From positions 1 to 8,222 of the forward strand of contig JAKBTA010000061.1 in assembly GCA_021844645.1 (NCBI GenBank): DNA of 8,222 nt. Direction: 5' to 3'. The position numbers were made by a program, and so were the translations under genes. The stretch comes from Nitrospirota bacterium (GTDB lineage: Bacteria; Nitrospirota_A; Leptospirillia; Leptospirillales; Leptospirillaceae). Below the pieces are notes generated by a model. It searched no databases. It was not told the origin of the DNA and worked only from the letters and a program-made list of their open reading frames with translations. Each line of letters starts with the position of its first letter. Position 1 is the first letter of the stretch. Positions 1 through 8,222 of the stretch are shown piece after piece.

Positions 1-2543
1 AGAACCGAGCCCAGAAGGGCTTCTCCCAGTGTCCGGAAGCTTTTTTGTTCCTGCTTGTATGCACCGGAGTAAGTGACCCACGAGGATTTCGGGAGAGTGA
101 GGGAGGAGATGCGTGTCTTGATCGCTTTGATCACTCCGCCCAGATTTCCATGATCCAGACGTCCTTCTATCCGGAGGATCGGGGAGAGGTTCTTGTCCTC
201 CTCCTCAATGGCGGGGGGAGTATTGGCGAATGTGACTACCTGGGAGAGTGGTATCAGGGAGCCGTCGGACTGGGTCATCGGGAGGTGGGAGAGGGGAATC
301 AGCCCATTTCTGTACTGGGAAGGGTAGAGAACCCTGACAGGAAGCGGTCCCTTGGGAGAAAGGACGGTTGTTGCGTTGATTCCCATGAGGTCTTCTCTTG
401 TCTGTGTGATGATGGATTCCGGTGTCAGTCCCGAAAGTGCGGCAAGGGGAGCGATCACGTGGCCGTCAAGGGTGTCTCCCATGGGACGGACGGACAGGTG
501 GACATCGACAAGCCCTGGGATCCCGTCAAGACTGTGCTGGATCATGCGGGCTGTCCCCAAAAGGTCTTTTCTGTTGGGACCATGGACTTCAATCACCACA
601 GGAGCTGAAACACCGATCAGGTCACCGAGGCTGTCCTCCATGACCTGGGAGTAGTCGGTGTCCAGTTCGGGTTCATTTTTTTGAACCCATGGCCTGAGTT
701 CCCTGATCAGAGTGAAGGTTGACTTCGGGTGGTTCCCGGAAAGCCTGATCACGAAATCGCCCTTGTTGGGTTCGGTGATGTAAAACCCCATCTCCGTTCC
801 AAGTCTTCTTGTCGTGTCGATGACACCCGGAAGGCTTCGGATATGATTTTCAACCCGGAGGACTGCCCGGTCCATGTCGTTGATGGAGCTTCCCACCGGG
901 GCATGAAAGTCCAGGGTGAAGGAGCCCTCGTCCATTCTGGCCATGAAATTCGTTTTGATGTGGGTTAGCGGCAAAAGCAGAAAGGCAAACAGAATGGCTC
1001 CGCCCACCAGAATGAGCGCTGGAGAGAGACGTGTCAGCATCCTGGTCGAGATCGCTTCCGGACTCTCGCTTTCCTGCTGGATGAATGCCGGAGTCACAAA
1101 AGTGTTGACCAGAAGAGAAACGCCCAAAAGCGTTACGAAGGAGATGGCCAATGGCTTGAAGAAGGCGCCTACGAGCCCATTCATGCCAAAGAGAGGAACG
1201 AGGGCGAGAATGGTGATCAGCCCTGAAAGAATGAATGGGACCAGGAGGCCTCTCATTCTGAGAGCGTGTCTTCCCCCTTCGATGATGACGATAAAGTCGT
1301 CGATGACAAGTCCAACTCCGGCAGCAATCCCTCCAAGGATCATGAGGTTCAATGTTTCACCAAGGAGTCCGAGAATGCCCGCGGAAATAAACAGGATTGC
1401 AGGAAGAAGTGCTCCCATCAGGAGAATGGGTGAGACTCGCCTGAGAATCAGGATGACGATGGCCATCGCGCCGGCGAGGCCGATGGCAAGAGCCCACAGG
1501 ACGTGCCGGATGGCATCGTGAACAAGTTCTCCCTGATCGTACACGATGGCCGGGGTGCATCCCTTCGGGAGAAGCCTCTTAAACTCGTCCATATGTGAAA
1601 GAAGGGCTCTCTGAATGGTCAGGGCGTTGCCTCCATGGGCACGGTAGATGAGAAGGAGGACTGCGGGGGATCCATTGGCGCTGATCCTGATCGTTTCGTC
1701 GGAAGGTCTGACTCCACGATGAACCGTTGCCAGAAGGTCGATCGGAAGGGGGACTCCTGAGGGTGATGGCAGGAAGATCCTGCTGATCGCCGATGTTCCG
1801 GTCATTGTGTTGTCGATCTGGACTGTCTTGAGGCGGTGGTTCTCGGTTCTTGGTCCAATGACACCGATTTTGTTCTGGGTGGATAGTGCGCTGACAACAT
1901 CCGAAAATGTCCGGTGAGCTCCGGCGAGCTTGTATGGATCAACCTCGACATGGATCTCCGGATTTTTGCCTCCGGCAATTTCGGATTTCCAGACTCCCGG
2001 AAGGTTTGAGATATAAGGGATCAGTCTGGTCTTTGCAATCCTTGTGATCTGGGGCAGGTTGTTGGAGTTTGAAGAAAGCGCCACTGTGAGGACAGGCGTA
2101 TCGGAAGGATACATCCTGATTGCCTGGATACTGGTTCCGGGAGGAAGATCTCCCCGGATGCGTTCAATAGCCTGTGCTACCCGCGGCAATGCCAGAGACA
2201 TTTGTTCATTCCAGGAAAATCGGAGAAAGAACTCGGCGGATCCTTGCATCGTTCGGGAGTTGAGTTCCCGGACGCCTTGCACGCCTCTCAGGGTAATTCC
2301 CACAGGTCTTGTGATCCGGCTTTCCATTTCCGCAAAGGGAATATCCGGAGAGCGGACAATAACAGAGACTCTGGGAAAGTCGATGGACGGATACAGGGTC
2401 ATGGGGAGATTCCATGCCTTGAGCGCGCCCAGGATTGAAAGCACAATGGTTAAAAGGAGGGAAAACCCCCGATATTTCCTGATGAGTTCCATGGCGGACG
2501 ATTGATTCGTGGATGGGGGCAACGATGCTCCTGGGCTAGACAT
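1..2543 (-). CDS. RND efflux transporter permease (AcrB/CusA superfamily), 3' end outside window
   Basis: Proton-driven inner-membrane pump subunit that normally works with a membrane-fusion protein and an outer-membrane channel; neither partner is in the window. The frame is open from 2543 to the left edge (847 codons visible; the family is about 1,020-1,050), so TM8-12 are missing. Visible: TM1 about residues 29-47, a periplasmic porter domain, TM2-TM6 starting near 348, the TM4 motif GLVIDDFIVIIE with the proton-relay pair D415/D416, TM7 about 508-528, then MARMDEGSF (534-542) opening the second porter domain, and YSGAYKEQKSF near the edge, typical of the approach to TM8. The Asp pair is HAE-like, while MARMDEGSF resembles the HME motif, so the substrate cannot be assigned. 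The cytoplasmic TM4-TM5 loop is about 12 residues shorter than usual. The start could instead be the ATG at 2492 (MELIRKYRGF), which begins where most family members do; neither ATG has a strong ribosome site. Probably co-transcribed with the peroxidase 87 bases upstream. Confidence 0.93.
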   Translation of the reverse strand, partial: MSSPGASLPPSTNQSSAMELIRKYRGFSLLLTIVLSILGALKAWNLPMTLYPSIDFPRVSVIVRSPDIPFAEMESRITRPVGITLRGVQGVRELNSRTMQGSAEFFLRFSWNEQMSLALPRVAQAIERIRGDLPPGTSIQAIRMYPSDTPVLTVALSSNSNNLPQITRIAKTRLIPYISNLPGVWKSEIAGGKNPEIHVEVDPYKLAGAHRTFSDVVSALSTQNKIGVIGPRTENHRLKTVQIDNTMTGTSAISRIFLPSPSGVPLPIDLLATVHRGVRPSDETIRISANGSPAVLLLIYRAHGGNALTIQRALLSHMDEFKRLLPKGCTPAIVYDQGELVHDAIRHVLWALAIGLAGAMAIVILILRRVSPILLMGALLPAILFISAGILGLLGETLNLMILGGIAAGVGLVIDDFIVIIEGGRHALRMRGLLVPFILSGLITILALVPLFGMNGLVGAFFKPLAISFVTLLGVSLLVNTFVTPAFIQQESESPEAISTRMLTRLSPALILVGGAILFAFLLLPLTHIKTNFMARMDEGSFTLDFHAPVGSSINDMDRAVLRVENHIRSLPGVIDTTRRLGTEMGFYITEPNKGDFVIRLSGNHPKSTFTLIRELRPWVQKNEPELDTDYSQVMEDSLGDLIGVSAPVVIEVHGPNRKDLLGTARMIQHSLDGIPGLVDVHLSVRPMGDTLDGHVIAPLAALSGLTPESIITQTREDLMGINATTVLSPKGPLPVRVLYPSQYRNGLIPLSHLPMTQSDGSLIPLSQVVTFANTPPAIEEEDKNLSPILRIEGRLDHGNLGGVIKAIKTRISSLTLPKSSWVTYSGAYKQEQKSFRTLGEALLGSV

Positions 2544-2546
2544 GAC

Positions 2547-2577
2547 CTGGACGTTTCTGATTCTCCGGAACGTCCAG
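2547..2577 (-). promoter_or_regulatory. Perfect 9-bp hairpin/palindrome just before the RND start
   Basis: On the minus strand the arms CTGGACGTT and AACGTCCAG are exact complements separated by 13 bases, and the hairpin ends three bases before the ATG at 2543. The loop carries the only purine-rich stretch (CCGGAG) that could act as a ribosome site. There is no T tract after it, so it is not an intrinsic terminator. It could be an operator for a dimeric repressor or an RNA hairpin affecting translation. The symmetry is seen directly; the role is inference. Confidence 0.45.
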
Positions 2578-2630
2578 AGTGCAGCTGATGATCTTTCCTG
2601 ATCCTGGCAGATTCTCGATGTCAGTGCCTT

Positions 2631-3551
2631 TTAGTCAAACAGAAAACGGAGATCGAGTCGATCCCCCATAATTGGCGGGCACCAGTAATATCCTCCCCTG
2701 ACAGGTCTTGAGAAGGTAAAAAGGGCGTCGGCGATGCCGTCATCCAGTCCCATCATGCGCCGCAAGACATGTTCAAAGGGATCAAGCGTTTTTCCGAAAG
2801 CAATGAATTCAAGACCCTGTTCAAGATTCAAGGCCCAGGGCATGGATCTTCTTAGCATGTAGGCCGGAGGTGTGTAGGATTCCTGGGCGCTTCTTTTGAC
2901 GTGGGCCGAGGGATCGGCATCAAGAATCTCTTCGTTGGTTGCCTGCTTTCTCCCGATAATATTGTCCCGTTCGTTTTGTGAATGAGTCCGGAAGTGTTTG
3001 AGATCGTGGACCCATCTCTGGACTGCGACAAGACTTGATCCTGCAACCCCTTCCCTTTCAGTCGCAATTGCAACGTCCAGGGCCTTTTCGCCGGAAGGAT
3101 TTTCCGTTCCGTCTTCATAGCCGGAAAGGTCTTTTCCTCCGGCGTACAAAAAGGTATCGATCTGGTCGTCAGGAGAAAAGGAGTCATTTAAAATATCCGA
3201 AAGTGGGAGCAGTTGATCGAAAATTTCACTGCGGTCATTTCCCTGGAGGAAGATCCAAAGGCTTCCCTGAGTGGAAGGAGATGAACAATTGGCGCCGGAA
3301 AGTCCGGGAAAAGTTCTGAGCCCCGGAACTTTTCTGGAGAAAGCCGATACAAGGGGTTCTCCAAGCCCGATGATTCCTTTTTGCGGATCAAAATGTTGGC
3401 TCAGGTTTTGAAGTACTTTTTTCGCATTTCTTTCCGGGAGATGCCGATAGGTGAGGGAGAGGCCGCATGGTTTATTCCCGGAGAGTATGAGGGGTTGTGC
3501 TGAAGGTTGATGCATATGGCTTCCTTTCTGAGAGATCTTTGGAGAATTCAT
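2631..3551 (-). CDS. DyP-type haem peroxidase, YfeX-like (class P/B)
   Basis: Haem peroxidase using H2O2 to oxidise organic or metal substrates; members of this class without a Tat signal act in the cytoplasm, and none is seen here. In the 306-residue frame the family signature GYEDGTENP lies at 144-152 with distal Asp147, followed by VQRWVHDLKHF at 177-187, the proximal haem ligand His217 in AHVKRS, and the distal Arg234-x-Ser236 in LRRSMPW. The spacing D-70-H-17-R-2-S closely matches what I recall for YfeX (143, 215, 232, 234). The C-terminal block PFEHVLRRMMG...GGYYWCPP is also typical. The ATG at 3551 overlaps the stop of the cyclase gene (ATGA). A second in-frame ATG at 3515 (MHQPSAQP) has a better ribosome site (AAGGA, 6-base gap) and gives 294 residues; it may be the real start. 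All key residues are present, so it should be active. Confidence 0.93.
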   Translation of the reverse strand: MNSPKISQKGSHMHQPSAQPLILSGNKPCGLSLTYRHLPERNAKKVLQNLSQHFDPQKGIIGLGEPLVSAFSRKVPGLRTFPGLSGANCSSPSTQGSLWIFLQGNDRSEIFDQLLPLSDILNDSFSPDDQIDTFLYAGGKDLSGYEDGTENPSGEKALDVAIATEREGVAGSSLVAVQRWVHDLKHFRTHSQNERDNIIGRKQATNEEILDADPSAHVKRSAQESYTPPAYMLRRSMPWALNLEQGLEFIAFGKTLDPFEHVLRRMMGLDDGIADALFTFSRPVRGGYYWCPPIMGDRLDLRFLFD

Positions 3552-4780
3552 GCCGTATCGGGCTCCTCATGGAAGGAGATTTCGGCTCTGGGCGCGATCC
3601 GGTATGCGTTCTTTCCATTTTTCTTGACATGGTACATGGCCTGGTCGGCCGTATGGATAATTGTTTTTGTCGAACATTGGTGAAAGGGGAACAGGCATAT
3701 CCCGATACTTGCACTGATAGAAAGAGGCTCTGGGATCTCCGGGTGCGAAAATGGAAGGGCCAGCACCCGGATGAGTCCCTTTGCGACTGAAACCGCTTCA
3801 TGTTCGGACGCAACCTTTTCAAGCAAAAGGAAAAACTCGTCTCCTCCAATTCGAGATAGCGTATTTTCGGGATGGAGGACGGACAGGATCCTTTCCGATG
3901 TCCTGACCAGGATCCAGTCTCCGACTTCATGTCCCCAGGTATCATTGATTGTCTTGAAGCCATCGATATCGATATAAAGTCCGGCGGCATCAAATTTGCC
4001 CCGTTGCGCATGAATAATGGCCTGTCCGATGCGGTCATCGAGAAGTTCCCGATTGGGAAGCCCTGTCAGCCGGTCATGGAGGGATCTTAGCAGCTGATGG
4101 TTTCGTTCTTCATCAAGCTCATATTCTCGGATAAACAGTTTTCTTCGTTGTCTTTCCATGATGTATCCGGTGATTCCGCCAATGATGTTGGCGGAAACAA
4201 TAAAGAAGAGATGGTTGAAGATGGTGTGTGGTGGGTAGTGGAAGTGCTGATCAAGCAGGAAAAAATAGGACAGGAAAAAGAGAAGATTGAGCCTGACTGA
4301 ATGGTAGAAGCGAAGTCCGATGGAGTTATAGATCCAGAAGGTGATGAGAATGATGCCAACATAGTAGACCTGCTCCGGGGAGGCTGGAATGTGGCTCATG
4401 GCGAGGAGGAAAAAAAAACCGGCAGCAAAAGCGGTGATTGAGAGTGTTAGCGGGTGTGTTTTGGAAAAGGATGATCGATAGGTCATGAGGATGGCCCATG
4501 CTCCAACGAGTAAAACCATCCCCCTGATGAGCCAAAGAAAGCCTTGATCGTTTTTGGGAATTAGCCATGGATCAATTCCACCGGAAACAATGTAGATGAA
4601 AACGCCGATAATAATTGCCCAGCGGCTTTGAACTTTGAGTCGGGGAACGATCGCTTCCTGATAGGATGTTTCAAGGAGCGGGTTCAAAAACGAGAGGGTA
4701 AACGGGTGCATCTCTCCACGGGAAGATTGAAGGGCGTCTTTTTTTTCCATTTTCTGGAGAAGATTTCCTTCATCTGGCAT
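3548..4780 (-). CDS. Membrane-anchored diguanylate cyclase (GGDEF)
   Basis: Makes cyclic di-GMP from two GTP at the inner membrane. The 410-residue protein has a short cytoplasmic N-terminus, about six hydrophobic segments between residues 54 and 207 (roughly 54-66, 82-100, 113-129, 138-152, 164-177, 188-207), a basic/acidic linker, then a GGDEF domain from about 232 (LHDRLTGLPNRELLDDR) to 395. The metal-binding DIDGFKTINDTWGHEVGD is at 271-288 and the catalytic RIGGDEFFLL at 310-319, so it should be active. The RxxD inhibitory site expected nine to six residues before GGDEF reads HPEN (303-306), so classical product inhibition is probably lost. No EAL domain follows. The membrane sensor is not one I can name. 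The start has an AAGG nine bases upstream; in-frame ATGs at 4750 and 4711 are alternatives. First gene of the probable operon with the peroxidase and the RND pump. Confidence 0.94.
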   Translation of the reverse strand: MPDEGNLLQKMEKKDALQSSRGEMHPFTLSFLNPLLETSYQEAIVPRLKVQSRWAIIIGVFIYIVSGGIDPWLIPKNDQGFLWLIRGMVLLVGAWAILMTYRSSFSKTHPLTLSITAFAAGFFFLLAMSHIPASPEQVYYVGIILITFWIYNSIGLRFYHSVRLNLLFFLSYFFLLDQHFHYPPHTIFNHLFFIVSANIIGGITGYIMERQRRKLFIREYELDEERNHQLLRSLHDRLTGLPNRELLDDRIGQAIIHAQRGKFDAAGLYIDIDGFKTINDTWGHEVGDWILVRTSERILSVLHPENTLSRIGGDEFFLLLEKVASEHEAVSVAKGLIRVLALPFSHPEIPEPLSISASIGICLFPFHQCSTKTIIHTADQAMYHVKKNGKNAYRIAPRAEISFHEEPDTA

Positions 4781-4860
4781 GGATATGAACCTTGTTTTCA
4801 GGAGGGAAACATTGATTCCCGGTCAGACTCTTGACTCATCAGAAAGCGATTCTTGTTACA

Positions 4861-4891
4861 AGTGTAGTTTTTTTTGATGGGAACATGTCAA
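4861..4891 (-). promoter_or_regulatory. Candidate sigma70 promoter of the cyclase-peroxidase-RND unit
   Basis: On the minus strand a perfect -35 TTGACA (4886-4891) is followed after 19 bases by TACACT (4861-4866, two mismatches to TATAAT). The 19-base spacer is longer than the ideal 17 and contains a run of eight A. Predicted transcription start is near 4854, giving a leader of about 74 nt that includes a small hairpin GGGAA/TTCCC. Confidence 0.5.
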
Positions 4892-4921
4892 GTTTTACTC
4901 CCTTGTTCAATATGGTAAGAG
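4886..4921 (+). repeat. Imperfect direct repeat, copy A
   Basis: On the plus strand it begins TGTCAA and contains CAATATGGTAAGAG (4908-4921). The same layout occurs at 7986-8019 (TGTCAA, then CAATATGGTATGAG), with a two-base length difference between the blocks. On the minus strand both read CTC(T/A)TACCATATTG, then TTGACA 16 or 14 bases later. The TGTCAA block is the -35 box of the predicted promoter in both copies. Confidence 0.5.
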
Positions 4922-4955
4922 ACTGCAATTTGCATACTTTAAAAGCAGGTAGGCT

Positions 4956-4971
4956 GAGGCTGGGAAATAAG
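4956..4971 (+). repeat. Solitary third copy of the IS terminal repeat
   Basis: GAGGCTGGGAAATAAG differs from the left IS end (5168-5183) at one position and from the right end at one position. The similarity may continue: TCAAAAAT follows directly here and follows after five extra bases at the left IS end. It has the same orientation as the left end. No partner end in the opposite orientation is present nearby, so it is probably a relic of a related element or of a deletion. Confidence 0.6.
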
Positions 4972-5080
4972 TCAAAAATTCTGATGTCGGTGGAGATGAG
5001 ATGCAATTTTTATAGGATGAGGGTTACCATGCTGGTGGCGAAAGGACATGAGGCAGTACTGATGACTGGTTGTGGATAGC

Positions 5081-5167
5081 TCAAGCCAGCACTCTCCAGA
5101 TTTTTTGTTGTCTCCAGTCCTCTTTGAACCCCATCTCCTTTGGAGAGATCGTTGGATGAGACTCTAG
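5081..5167 (-). pseudogene. 3' fragment of the interrupted Abi_2/AbiF gene
   Basis: Read on the minus strand from the CTAG at 5164-5167 in the frame of the 5' part, this encodes 27 residues and a TGA stop, including ESHPTISPKEMGFKEDW and ending IWRVLA. This fits the usual C-terminus of Abi_2 proteins (LL-x-HP...MGFPxxW...W). It completes the gene whose first 278 codons are at 7057-7890; joined, they would encode 305 residues. The fragment has no start or ribosome site suited to separate expression and lies downstream of the element's terminator, so it is dead sequence in this state. Confidence 0.88.
5164..5167. repeat. CTAG target-site duplication, left copy
   Basis: CTAG directly abuts the left terminal repeat; the matching copy is at 7056-7059. 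Keeping one copy and deleting 1,892 bases restores the abi reading frame. Deleting both copies would not, which argues that CTAG is a duplicated target rather than part of the element. Confidence 0.8.
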
Positions 5168-5183
5168 GAGCCTGGGAAATAAG
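5168..5183 (+). repeat. IS left terminal inverted repeat
   Basis: GAGCCTGGGAAATAAG, pairing with the reverse complement of 7040-7055 (GAGGCTGGGAAATAGG) at 14 of 16 positions. Similarity stops sharply after this block. Confidence 0.82.
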
Positions 5184-5304
5184 AAAAATCAAAAATCGGT
5201 CCGTCAACCGGATGACGCCCGTTTTTCACGCTCACATTTCCTCCGATCGCTGTCAGAGTTGGAGTTTTTTCGGACTCCCCTCTCCATCTGACCGATATTT
5301 GATC

Positions 5305-5337
5305 AAAAAAGGGAAGATGCCCCCTTTCAGAGGGCAT
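5305..5337 (-). terminator. Rho-independent terminator overlapping the transposase stop codon
   Basis: On the minus strand ATGCCCTCT, GAA, AGGGGGCAT form a 9-bp stem (one T-G pair) with a three-base loop at 5317-5337, followed by CTTCCC and six T. The transposase TGA (5327-5329) spans the end of the 5' arm and the loop. It should end transposase transcripts inside the element and shield the abi 3' fragment and the cyclase region. Confidence 0.72.
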
Positions 5338-6898
5338 TTTCCGCCATCATTCCCGGAAAAAGGCCGCGGGGAAAGGCCGCTTTAGGGAATGTTCCACGTT
5401 TTTTATCTCGGCCCGCGCCCTCCGGCGCCGGTCCGTTCACGAGGCGCTGTTTCCAGGCCATCAGCTTCTTCAGGTTGAACGCCCCGCACACCAGATTCCA
5501 TTCGCTCTGAACCTTCTCTAACCCCCGACAGAAAAAGTGCACAAACCCCATGCCGGACTTGATCTGCCCGAAAACTGGCTCGACCGTCGTTTTCCGGCGC
5601 CGATAGACCGCTTCGTTCTCCTTTTGCTTCTGCCGGAGTTTGAAACGGGCCCAGGCTGTTTCTTCCACACGCAGTTCTTCGGGACAGCCGCAGGCACATT
5701 CTTCCTCGACTGCCCGATAGGTCCGCTTCTTCCCAAAGCTTGAGTAGATCCAGACGAAGAGGATCCCGTGGGAACAACGGAGGGTGTCCAGCGATCCTTC
5801 CGTCTCCTCCAGAACGAACCCGGAGAGAAGAGGGGGCGCTTCCTCCTCTCCCTCCGCTTTTTTCCTCTCCCGGGCGGTCGCCACCACCGGGATCACTCCC
5901 GCCTTCTCACAGGCTTCCAGGGTGTGCACGTTTCCATAGCCCGCATCGGCCACCAGCATCTCGGGGCGTTCTCCAGCCGTTTCCTTGATCTTTTCAAGCA
6001 TCCCTTCCACCGCCCGGCTGTCGCTCACCGTATTGATCAGGGTCGTTCCCAGAATGATCTGAGACCCCATGTCCACCGCCACCTGTGCGTTGTACACATA
6101 TTCCGTTCCCTCGCTCTTCTTCGAGAAGACACGGGCCTCCGGATCCGCAAACGAGATCTGCTTCGTGTTCTCGATCGCCTTTCCCGGATTTTCCTCAGCC
6201 TCCCGTTTTTCGAGCTCCGCCTTGGCGGTCTGGATCTTCTTCCGTTTTTCTTCCCGGAGCGCGATCTCCTCCTTCGCCCGGATGATCGTTTCCTTGCGGG
6301 CGTTCCCATCCGCCAGCGCAGCTGGCAAGCTTCCGGATTTCTCCGGCGTTCCCGCTTCCCGACTGTCCTCCTCCTCGGCCTTCTTCATCCAGAAGTCGAT
6401 CTCGCTCTTGAGCCTCTCTTCCTCCTCTTGCATCCGGCCGTAGCTCATCGCCTTGTGCTTGGAGGTGTCGGAAAGAACCTTCGTCCCATCCATCGCCACG
6501 TTCCCAAGTTTTGCCAACCCCATCGTTCGGGCCAGGAGCACCGTCTCCTTGAAGACCGTTTCCATTCCCTCCCGGTGTCGTTCCCGGAATTCGATGAAGG
6601 TCCGGTAAACCGGCGTCTGCAGCCCCGACAGATACAGGAACGGGAGCGACTCCTCGCAGGCCTTGGCCAGCTTGCGCGAACTGAAGATTCCTTCCGTGAA
6701 TCCGTACAGGATCACCTTCAGCATCATCTTCGGATGGTAGGCCGCCGGGCCCATCCCGCTATACCGGGCATAGAAGCTCGACAGATCCATCTGGTCGATG
6801 ATGTCGCTGATGATCCGTGATTGATGGTCCACCGGAACAAATTCTGACAAGGCCCGGGGAAAAAGAAAGTTCAGATTCTGATGATAGGGAAGGAACAT
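5327..6898 (-). CDS. IS1182-family transposase (DUF772 N-terminus plus DDE domain)
   Basis: Catalyses cut/join of the element ends. With the ATG at 6898 the protein has 523 residues and starts MFLPYHQNLNFLFP, the usual start of the family; GGAGG lies four bases upstream at 6903-6907. An upstream in-frame ATG at 6931 would add 11 residues but lies before that ribosome site. The N-terminal DUF772 region (about 20-110) includes HPKMMLKVILYGF and SSRKLAKAC. The catalytic residues appear as Asp137 in VAMDGTKVLS, Asp318 in MLVADAGYGN and Glu440 in RRRKTTVEPVFGQIKSGMGF. A charged, helix-prone insert rich in Glu, Lys and Arg (about 157-245) lies between the first and second Asp. No frameshift or stop is seen, so the enzyme looks intact. 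Confidence 0.93.
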   Translation of the reverse strand: MFLPYHQNLNFLFPRALSEFVPVDHQSRIISDIIDQMDLSSFYARYSGMGPAAYHPKMMLKVILYGFTEGIFSSRKLAKACEESLPFLYLSGLQTPVYRTFIEFRERHREGMETVFKETVLLARTMGLAKLGNVAMDGTKVLSDTSKHKAMSYGRMQEEEERLKSEIDFWMKKAEEEDSREAGTPEKSGSLPAALADGNARKETIIRAKEEIALREEKRKKIQTAKAELEKREAEENPGKAIENTKQISFADPEARVFSKKSEGTEYVYNAQVAVDMGSQIILGTTLINTVSDSRAVEGMLEKIKETAGERPEMLVADAGYGNVHTLEACEKAGVIPVVATARERKKAEGEEEAPPLLSGFVLEETEGSLDTLRCSHGILFVWIYSSFGKKRTYRAVEEECACGCPEELRVEETAWARFKLRQKQKENEAVYRRRKTTVEPVFGQIKSGMGFVHFFCRGLEKVQSEWNLVCGAFNLKKLMAWKQRLVNGPAPEGAGRDKKRGTFPKAAFPRGLFPGMMAENAL

Positions 6899-6948
6899 GC
6901 ATCCTCCAAAGATGGCGTGGTGGAAAATCAAGCCGGACTATTTCTATA

Positions 6949-6977
6949 AGTATATATAATTATTGAATAATAGTCAA
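6949..6977 (-). promoter_or_regulatory. Near-consensus promoter of the transposase gene
   Basis: On the minus strand TTGACT (6972-6977), a 17-base spacer and TATACT (6949-6954): one mismatch in each box, in a markedly AT-rich patch inside an otherwise GC-rich element. Predicted start is near 6942, about 45 nt before the ATG at 6898. Confidence 0.72.
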
Positions 6978-7039
6978 TGTCCATGCCAGAATGGTCATAT
7001 CTTTGACAGATGTCCCTTCCTTTTTTGTGCTTTTATGTA

Positions 7040-7055
7040 CCTATTTCCCAGCCTC
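7040..7055 (-). repeat. IS right terminal inverted repeat
   Basis: Read on the minus strand: GAGGCTGGGAAATAGG, the partner of 5168-5183. It is translated as the end of the truncated Abi protein (…GGWEIGT, stop). Confidence 0.82.
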
Positions 7056-7059
7056 CTAG
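7056..7059. repeat. CTAG target-site duplication, right copy
   Basis: Abuts the right terminal repeat and falls on codon 278 (CTA, Leu) and the first base of the next codon of abi. Confidence 0.8.
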
Positions 7060-7904
7060 CAGACAAATGAATCTCCTATGCCAAGTGGAACGAGGGGAGA
7101 CAATGCGTATGAGATAGGCCAGCAATGTCATCGTATTTCCAAGTCGACCATCCTCTACCGGATTGAACGAATTTGCCAGTCCAGCGGGTTTTTTTCTCGG
7201 GATTTGCATTTTCATGGAAAACGATCGATTCCAGATTCGCCCATGATGCGCACAGTGGTTGCGGACGATGGACAAATGATGGGTAAACGATACCAGGACT
7301 TTTTCATCCAGTTCATAGGCATCGGCGATATGCTGGCGGTCGGTAGGATTTTTAAGATTTTGCAGCCAGCGAGAAATGTGCCCTAAGGCCATTAGTTCAC
7401 AGGCAACACAGATGGGCGGGAGTTCTAAGTGGTTATAGTTGTTTCGGTAATGCTCGGCAAAGACCTCCCGGCTTCGCCGGTATTCTTTTTCGAGTTCCTT
7501 CTTACAAATCTCCCACACATCCCGTCGTCGAAAGAGATCCGGATCGGTATGGGCAAAAGAACCGTACTTCAACGCCAGGGAGTGTGACCATCGAGCGCGT
7601 AAAGAAATTTCCACCCGCTCAATGGCATCGAGGAGCAGCAGGCGAAGTTCACGGTCGAAATCGTACAGCAGAAGGATCTCTTCCAGCGTGGTGCTACTGC
7701 GAAACGCATGTTGCCCGCTGGCATCTTTGGATTCAAAGGGCAACCAATAGGCCCGAAGCCTGTAATAGTTGATGTGGGTCAAAAGGTGACGGGCGTGCTC
7801 CCGGTCCGGGATGGACAAGCCACGTTCAAGGAGGAGATCTATTTGCTGGTCGATGGTCAGGGGGGGCTTTGGAAAGGATGTCGGAGTCATTGTCCGGCCC
7901 TTAA

Positions 7905-7956
7905 ATCAAAAAACCCGCCTGGTGCGCATCGTTGAGAGGCGGGGCGGGTGTTGTTA
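7905..7956 (-). ncRNA. Candidate short abi leader RNA ending in a terminator
   Basis: The predicted start from the promoter at 7963-7991 is near 7956 and the intrinsic terminator ends near 7907, so most transcripts should be about 50 nt long and stop before abi. From memory, a structured RNA motif is known upstream of abiF genes, and AbiF has been described as a toxin held by a noncoding RNA. This leader occupies the right position, but I cannot show that it matches that motif. Confidence 0.4.
7907..7949 (-). terminator. Intrinsic terminator/attenuator in the abi leader
   Basis: Minus strand: CCCGCCT (7937-7943) pairs perfectly with AGGCGGG (7914-7920), with a 16-base loop, followed by six T (7908-7913). 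A second left arm, ACCCGCC (7943-7949), can pair with GGCGGGT (7913-7919), so two overlapping registers compete for the same 3' arm. It lies 17 bases upstream of the abi ATG and downstream of the abi promoter, so abi transcripts must read through it. Confidence 0.75.
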
Positions 7957-7962
7957 GTTCTG

Positions 7963-7991
7963 ATCTTACCGAAGCTTGGTTGTTCTGTCAA
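7963..7991 (-). promoter_or_regulatory. Promoter of the abi leader and gene
   Basis: Minus strand: perfect -35 TTGACA (7986-7991), 17-base spacer, -10 TAAGAT (7963-7968, two mismatches). A CTCATACCATATTG block lies 14 bases upstream of the -35 and is nearly identical to one upstream of the cyclase promoter. Confidence 0.62.
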
Positions 7992-8019
7992 TTTGCAGCC
8001 TCATCCAATATGGTATGAG
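7986..8019 (+). repeat. Imperfect direct repeat, copy B
   Basis: TGTCAA at 7986-7991 and CAATATGGTATGAG at 8006-8019, matching copy A at 4886-4921 (13 of 14 in the second block, 6 of 6 in the first). The two copies bracket the abi locus including the IS. Confidence 0.5.
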
Positions 8020-8105
8020 TCTTAAAGGGAGTTCGTCTTTCCACCAAGAGATGAGTCTACAAGGGGTCAAATCGTTCATAATGGATGGCATGGTAATCAA
8101 TATGG

Positions 8106-8222
8106 ATGACTGGGCTTTCCCGCCAGCAAGTGACCCGTCTCGTCCATCAGTTTCAGAAAACGGGGACAGTGCGATTGGGATACCAGACTCCCAGACGTGG
8201 ATTCCAGAGGGTTTTTGGCCCC
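8106..8222 (+). pseudogene. Fragment of an integrase-type transposase (HTH part), running off the right edge
   Basis: This frame encodes MTGLSRQQVTRLVHQFQ followed by a GYQTPRRGF block. It resembles the HTH region of integrase-core (rve-type) transposases whose usual text is TG(L/Y)SRxQ(V/L)TRL…(R)xF…(R)YT. In that family I recall about 60-70 residues before this motif, but here a TAA lies four codons upstream (8094-8096), and only a short possible N-terminus (MSLQGVKSFI, from 8051, different frame) is visible. It therefore looks like a gene with an internal deletion or frameshift; a genuine short start at 8106 is the alternative. The catalytic part would be beyond the window. Confidence 0.45.

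Follow-up and report, generated by a model that had tools for sequence, protein, structure and literature searches.

What remains of a toxin gene into which a mobile element has inserted, and can the system to which it belonged still be recognised? This question is raised by contig JAKBTA010000061.1 of a Nitrospirota bacterium (assembly GCA_021844645.1), the 8,222 nucleotides of which were analysed here and are referred to as the window. It carries an AbiD/F-type (Abi_2) gene, an insertion sequence (IS) of the IS1182 family lodged within this gene, and an abiF RNA upstream of it. Very probably, this is an AbiD/F toxin-antitoxin/phage-defence module that was recently struck by the IS1182-family element at a CTAG, which is now duplicated. 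A preliminary description had already reported that an IS1182-type element splits an AbiF-like gene. That interpretation is supported as correct but incomplete; the abiF RNA and its promoter-like site were missing from it, and hence the RNA-antitoxin/toxin pair was not recognised. The recognition of this RNA-toxin module is what the present analysis adds.

The interrupted gene and its target site

The split of the Abi_2 gene by the IS1182-family element is confirmed, and the breakpoints are exact to the base. The two gene halves were translated and compared separately, never joined, and a natural intact relative, P0001, served as the reference. P0001 is a homologue of 305 aa from a 2351-base contig, for which the homologue search itself gave 94% identity and 98% coverage of the query. 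Its residues are identical to those of the window protein at 262 of 278 positions ahead of the element and, collinearly, at 23 of 27 after it. As 278 and 27 make up 305, the size of P0001, no residue was gained or lost at the break. As a control for chance, all six frames of the window were scanned with the last 27 residues of P0001; no other place gave more than 8/27. The remote tail, 1.9 kb away, is thus borne out, as is the agreement of its translation with the C-terminus of a homologue. The proposed total of 305 residues also holds, although the 17-residue C-terminus quoted with it is only the first part of the tail. The open frame indeed has 285 codons, of which 1-278 (7890-7057) are native, while 279-285 (7056-7036) and the stop (7035-7033) are derived from the element.

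IS copies are common misassembly points, and the element might in principle bridge unrelated flanks in the assembly. However, the collinear match to P0001 makes both halves one gene, and each half carries the same CTAG, so that such an artefact is very hard to credit.

The element ends (GAGCCTGGGAAATA / GAGGCTGGGAAATA) form an imperfect inverted repeat (I1), which extends to 18 nt at 94% identity when the CTAG is counted in. The transposase scores 350.5 bits against the NCBIfam IS1182 equivalog NF033551 (cut-off 270, residues 18-493), and its start is more likely the ATG at 6898 than the TTG that opens the frame. Genome G001 contains this element too, together with the CTAG on either side; over these 1896 bases the two copies differ at 3 positions, each of them upstream of the transposase open reading frame (ORF). 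A diverged copy is present on contig C8 of G020, in two matched pieces (85% and 77%), and partial matches occur in G003, G011 and contig C54 of G020. The insertion is most likely recent.

The window holds three CTAGs, two of which flank the element, where about 32 would be expected from base composition and 5.3 from a Markov model; CTAG is uncommon here, not unusually so given its sub-words. There is none in the native gene pieces at 7060-7890 and 5081-5163, and the place of insertion is therefore explained by the gene's only CTAG, which spans codons 278-279. CTAG lies on both sides of all three element copies that have both ends (window, G001 and C8 of G020), and one CTAG is for this reason formally inseparable from the element. 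It could then be supposed that the CTAG is element sequence and that no true target duplication took place, the element having replaced a stem-loop. The IS1182 family is heterogeneous according to the excerpted text of PMC5678879, and for IS1272, a further member, this text proposes the replacement of stem-loops or palindromes. Against this, the target is complete when compared with P0001. Miniature inverted-repeat transposable elements (MITEs) that measure about 170 bp and have ends of the IS1182 type (GAGGCTGGGAAATAAG) also bear on the matter. Five full copies were seen (L055, L056, L057, L058 and, on plasmid p49879.1, L054), three with CTAG on both sides and two with CTAG on one side and a one-base change opposite; the changed flanks (CTGG in G015, CTAC in G009) suggest that CTAG is a flank and not an obligatory end. 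Further, for ISPsy36, another member of the family, the target consists of 4-base GGCC repeats (PMC8027508, in excerpt). Stem-loop replacement is accordingly improbable, and with no sequence lost from the target, a target-duplicating route fits better. The ends of the element and the duplicated CTAG remain as first described.

Table 1. Positions of the gene pieces, the inserted element and the neighbouring features in the window.
Feature	Position	Strand	Remarks
Interrupted AbiD/F (Abi_2) gene	7033..7890	-	open frame of 285 codons
Split-off 3' end of the Abi_2 gene	5081..5164	-	27 codons and stop; 23/27 residues identical to P0001 279-305
IS1182-family insertion sequence	5168..7055	.	1888 bp; CTAG on both sides
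IS1182 transposase ORF	5327..6931	-	534 aa from TTG; DDE_Tnp_1 and DUF772
Left terminal inverted repeat	5168..5181	+	14 bp, one mismatch to right end
Right terminal inverted repeat	7042..7055	-	14 bp
CTAG target-site copy, left flank	5164-5167	.	
CTAG target-site copy, right flank	7056-7059	.	
abiF RNA (Rfam RF03085), putative RNA antitoxin	7913..7948	-	40.1 bits, gathering 37, E 4.2e-5
Sigma-70-like promoter before the abiF RNA	7963..7991	-	TTGACA-17-TAAGAT; consensus match only
Left 58 bp of IS1182-type MITE (~170 bp)	4956..5013	+	90% identical to full G001 copy; without CTAG
5' end of another transposase element	7996-8222		matches start of 416-aa transposase-like ORF

The abiF RNA and the HEPN protein

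The Rfam search, which covered 4800-8222, placed an abiF RNA upstream of the Abi_2 gene, with a promoter-like site before it. These two features mark the locus as an RNA-antitoxin/HEPN-RNase-toxin module of the AbiD/F type. The promoter match is weak by itself, as the scan gave three sites of sigma-70 type where 1.6 were expected. The closing stem of the RNA leads directly into TTTTTT, and the RNA is thus probably also a terminator upstream of the gene. When folded alone, 7956-7904 has a z of -2.70, while the fold of the longer leader is unremarkable (z -1.44). This site was not listed by the terminator pattern scan, probably as the scan allows only shorter loops.

The same 105-bp leader occurs in G012 with 3 differences; the abiF motif is unchanged (again 40.1 bits) and both promoter hexamers are kept. 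Among 21 family genomes, the RNA was found in G012 only, with 150 of several hundred first-look candidates scored per genome. Seven plasmid relatives (L065-L071), hand-picked from the best 20 of 367 records, were also searched. Six have an abiF match on the same strand, ending 39-88 bases short of the annotated start of the gene, though two of these leaders (L068 and L069) are near-identical; in the seventh, L066, there was no match up to E 0.5. None of the six matches reaches the gathering score (29.2-32.2 bits, E 0.017-0.094), and T-rich tracts follow the stem. This suggests a strict Rfam cut-off, and abiF motif and terminator may be one and the same.

The protein itself matches Pfam Abi_2 (PF07751) with 180.7 bits against a gathering score of 25.6. 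The full profile (1-184) is covered by residues 35-221, wholly before the break, and AbiD is the sole PADLOC match (214.2 bits). The HEPN motif RNxxxH is kept as RNHCAH at 210-215, with R210 and H215 invariant in an alignment of 49 rows, namely 48 proteins hand-picked from 120 listed homologues and the window protein. RNNYNH at 149, the first result of the plain RNxxxH pattern, was set aside, and RNHCAH was taken as catalytic. A scan of 41 genomes found the gene in G012 (92% identity) alone among the 21 family genomes, the other match (G022, 45%) belonging to another family.

What the insertion leaves of the module

The window still holds the abiF RNA, the promoter-like site and the RNHCAH motif, while the conserved tail is separated from the protein. 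The tail motif is present in 117 of 120 homologues among the matches listed. Its MGFP..W segment is found in P0001 and is cut off by the element here, which makes the window protein a disrupted member. The predicted model of P0001 matches the solved PbAbiF-RNA structure (8vz6; Zilberzwige-Tal et al. 2025, as cited in PMC12373285) over 296 residues, tail included, and in the solved chain the last 27 residues belong to the folded body. Loss of these residues would therefore probably inactivate or weaken the toxin. Another change is W161C (7408-7410, minus strand, codon 161), where 46 of 47 relatives have W; this may reflect a sequence error or an additional inactivating substitution. Thus, of the 'intact defence protein' said to be recovered by joining the halves, the length stands, whereas function is not implied.

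Some observations weigh against this account. The empty site is deduced from the protein P0001, not from DNA, and residue 278 of P0001 is V where the window has L. The uninterrupted gene sought in related genomes was thus found as a protein, and not as DNA. The scan of genome contigs gave three loci (92%, the shortened copy also in G012; 38%; 35%) and no uninterrupted close relative, the viral contigs, scanned with P0001, gave no relative, and the Abi relatives in 44 phage and 367 plasmid records are all below 60% identity, with no empty site among them. The one further close copy available as DNA, in G012, is similar only up to residue 132, near the start of its contig. No NCBIfam model matched the Abi ORF, and the more distant loci L002 (45%), L004 (38%) and L005 (35%) yielded no abiF RNA at E 0.1 or below. 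Finally, as RNHCAH and the whole Pfam domain precede the break, the shortened protein may possibly retain residual activity or RNA binding.

If it does, the 285-residue protein could still work and the insertion would be nearly neutral. The model of the shortened form keeps a mean predicted local distance difference test score (pLDDT) of 90.9, and divergence from G012 over residues 1-132 (dN 0.045 against dS 0.20) speaks for no long decay. The element-derived residues are, however, modelled poorly, and the widespread tail motif, the place of the tail in the solved chain and W161C all tell against a working protein, which is therefore unlikely. There is only a slim chance that the shortened form, with its RNA-binding groove retained, is a non-toxic binder of the abiF RNA that alters the supply of free antitoxin, the module being rewired rather than killed.

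For the disrupted module, the following course is proposed. In the intact state, the promoter would drive the abiF RNA (antitoxin and probable terminator) and then the Abi_2/HEPN RNase. Judging from studied relatives, the RNA would bind the protein and end most transcription ahead of the gene, until phage or stress frees the protein, whose RNase activity would halt growth. The IS1182-family element would then have inserted at the CTAG over codons 278-279 and duplicated it, and the loss of the tail would leave the RNA antitoxin without a working partner. By analogy, the intact allele may work by the mechanism of C. difficile AbiF, RNA neutralisation included, and may have an anti-phage role.

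Both the system and the element that broke it are of known kinds, and disruption of a costly defence gene by an IS is ordinary. A recent element can nonetheless conceal a complete RNA-toxin module: the protein would be annotated at 285 aa, the tail overlooked, and the RNA partner possibly left out. AbiD/F proteins have also been proposed as the ancestor of the Cas13 HEPN nucleases (PMC12165695 and PMC12373285, both in excerpt). A member that is probably from Nitrospirota, with a single RNA motif that is apparently also the terminator, is thus a useful comparison. The open-licence papers searched yielded nothing joining abiF, a transposase and Leptospirillum, or Leptospirillum with an insertion sequence and a MITE.

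Setting and relation to known systems

The module sits between the partial MITE and the second transposase element, a setting that fits a mobile defence gene. The MITE piece has a close relative on the L. ferrooxidans plasmid p49879.1, which points to Leptospirillum as the putative host genus, and related CTAG-flanked MITEs occur in Leptospirillum and its kin. The second element, with three occurrences of its stretch in G003, starts upstream of the abiF promoter, 4 bp from its -35 box, at the point where the similarity to G012 stops. In G012, the module adjoins an HsdM methylase, a tyrosine integrase and a tRNA-Leu, and this neighbourhood (L050 99-4646) is likely a defence island. Matches at 74-83% link the chromosome-like part of the window to G002 (1-2535 and 2640-4817) and to G003 (1-2550 and 2640-4720). 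G001, which is closest to the window in its 31-letter words (60%), has no match in 1-3500 or 7060-8222, and only short stretches in 3500-5163. A 31-nt direct repeat, 74% identical (4894-4924 and 7992-8022), flanks the module, possibly by chance. Two sub-threshold Rfam matches were discarded as chance, namely Tombus_3_III (4970-5026; 20.3 against a cut-off of 35, E 0.66) and ylbH (5270-5347; 19.7 against 50, E 0.41).

As excerpted, PMC12373285 describes C. difficile AbiF as toxic in C. difficile and E. coli, with toxicity abolished by substitution of R202 and H207; RNHCAH is the equivalent motif in the window protein. RCd22, the RNA encoded upstream, ends transcription ahead of the gene and binds the C. 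difficile protein directly, thereby neutralising it. The window resembles such AbiF-ncRNA toxin-antitoxin systems (PbAbiF and C. difficile AbiF-RCd22) in its Abi_2/HEPN protein with RNxxxH, in the abiF RNA upstream on the same strand, in the promoter-like site before the RNA and in the T-run between RNA and gene, and the predicted fold of P0001 agrees with that of PbAbiF over the length given above. It differs from RCd22 in that one abiF motif was found in the window instead of two, the motif's own closing stem preceding the T-run, and from these systems in general in that the gene is split by an IS. AbiD, AbiD1 and AbiF of Lactococcus plasmids belong to the same Abi_2 / AbiD-F group; unlike them, the window gene has a probable Nitrospirota host and a chromosome-like neighbourhood, and its phage resistance is putative. 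The element agrees with the IS1182 family in its transposase score above the NF033551 cut-off, its 14-bp imperfect terminal repeats and its palindromic 4-base target. Unlike the route proposed for IS1272, the target in the window loses nothing, and four bases are repeated.
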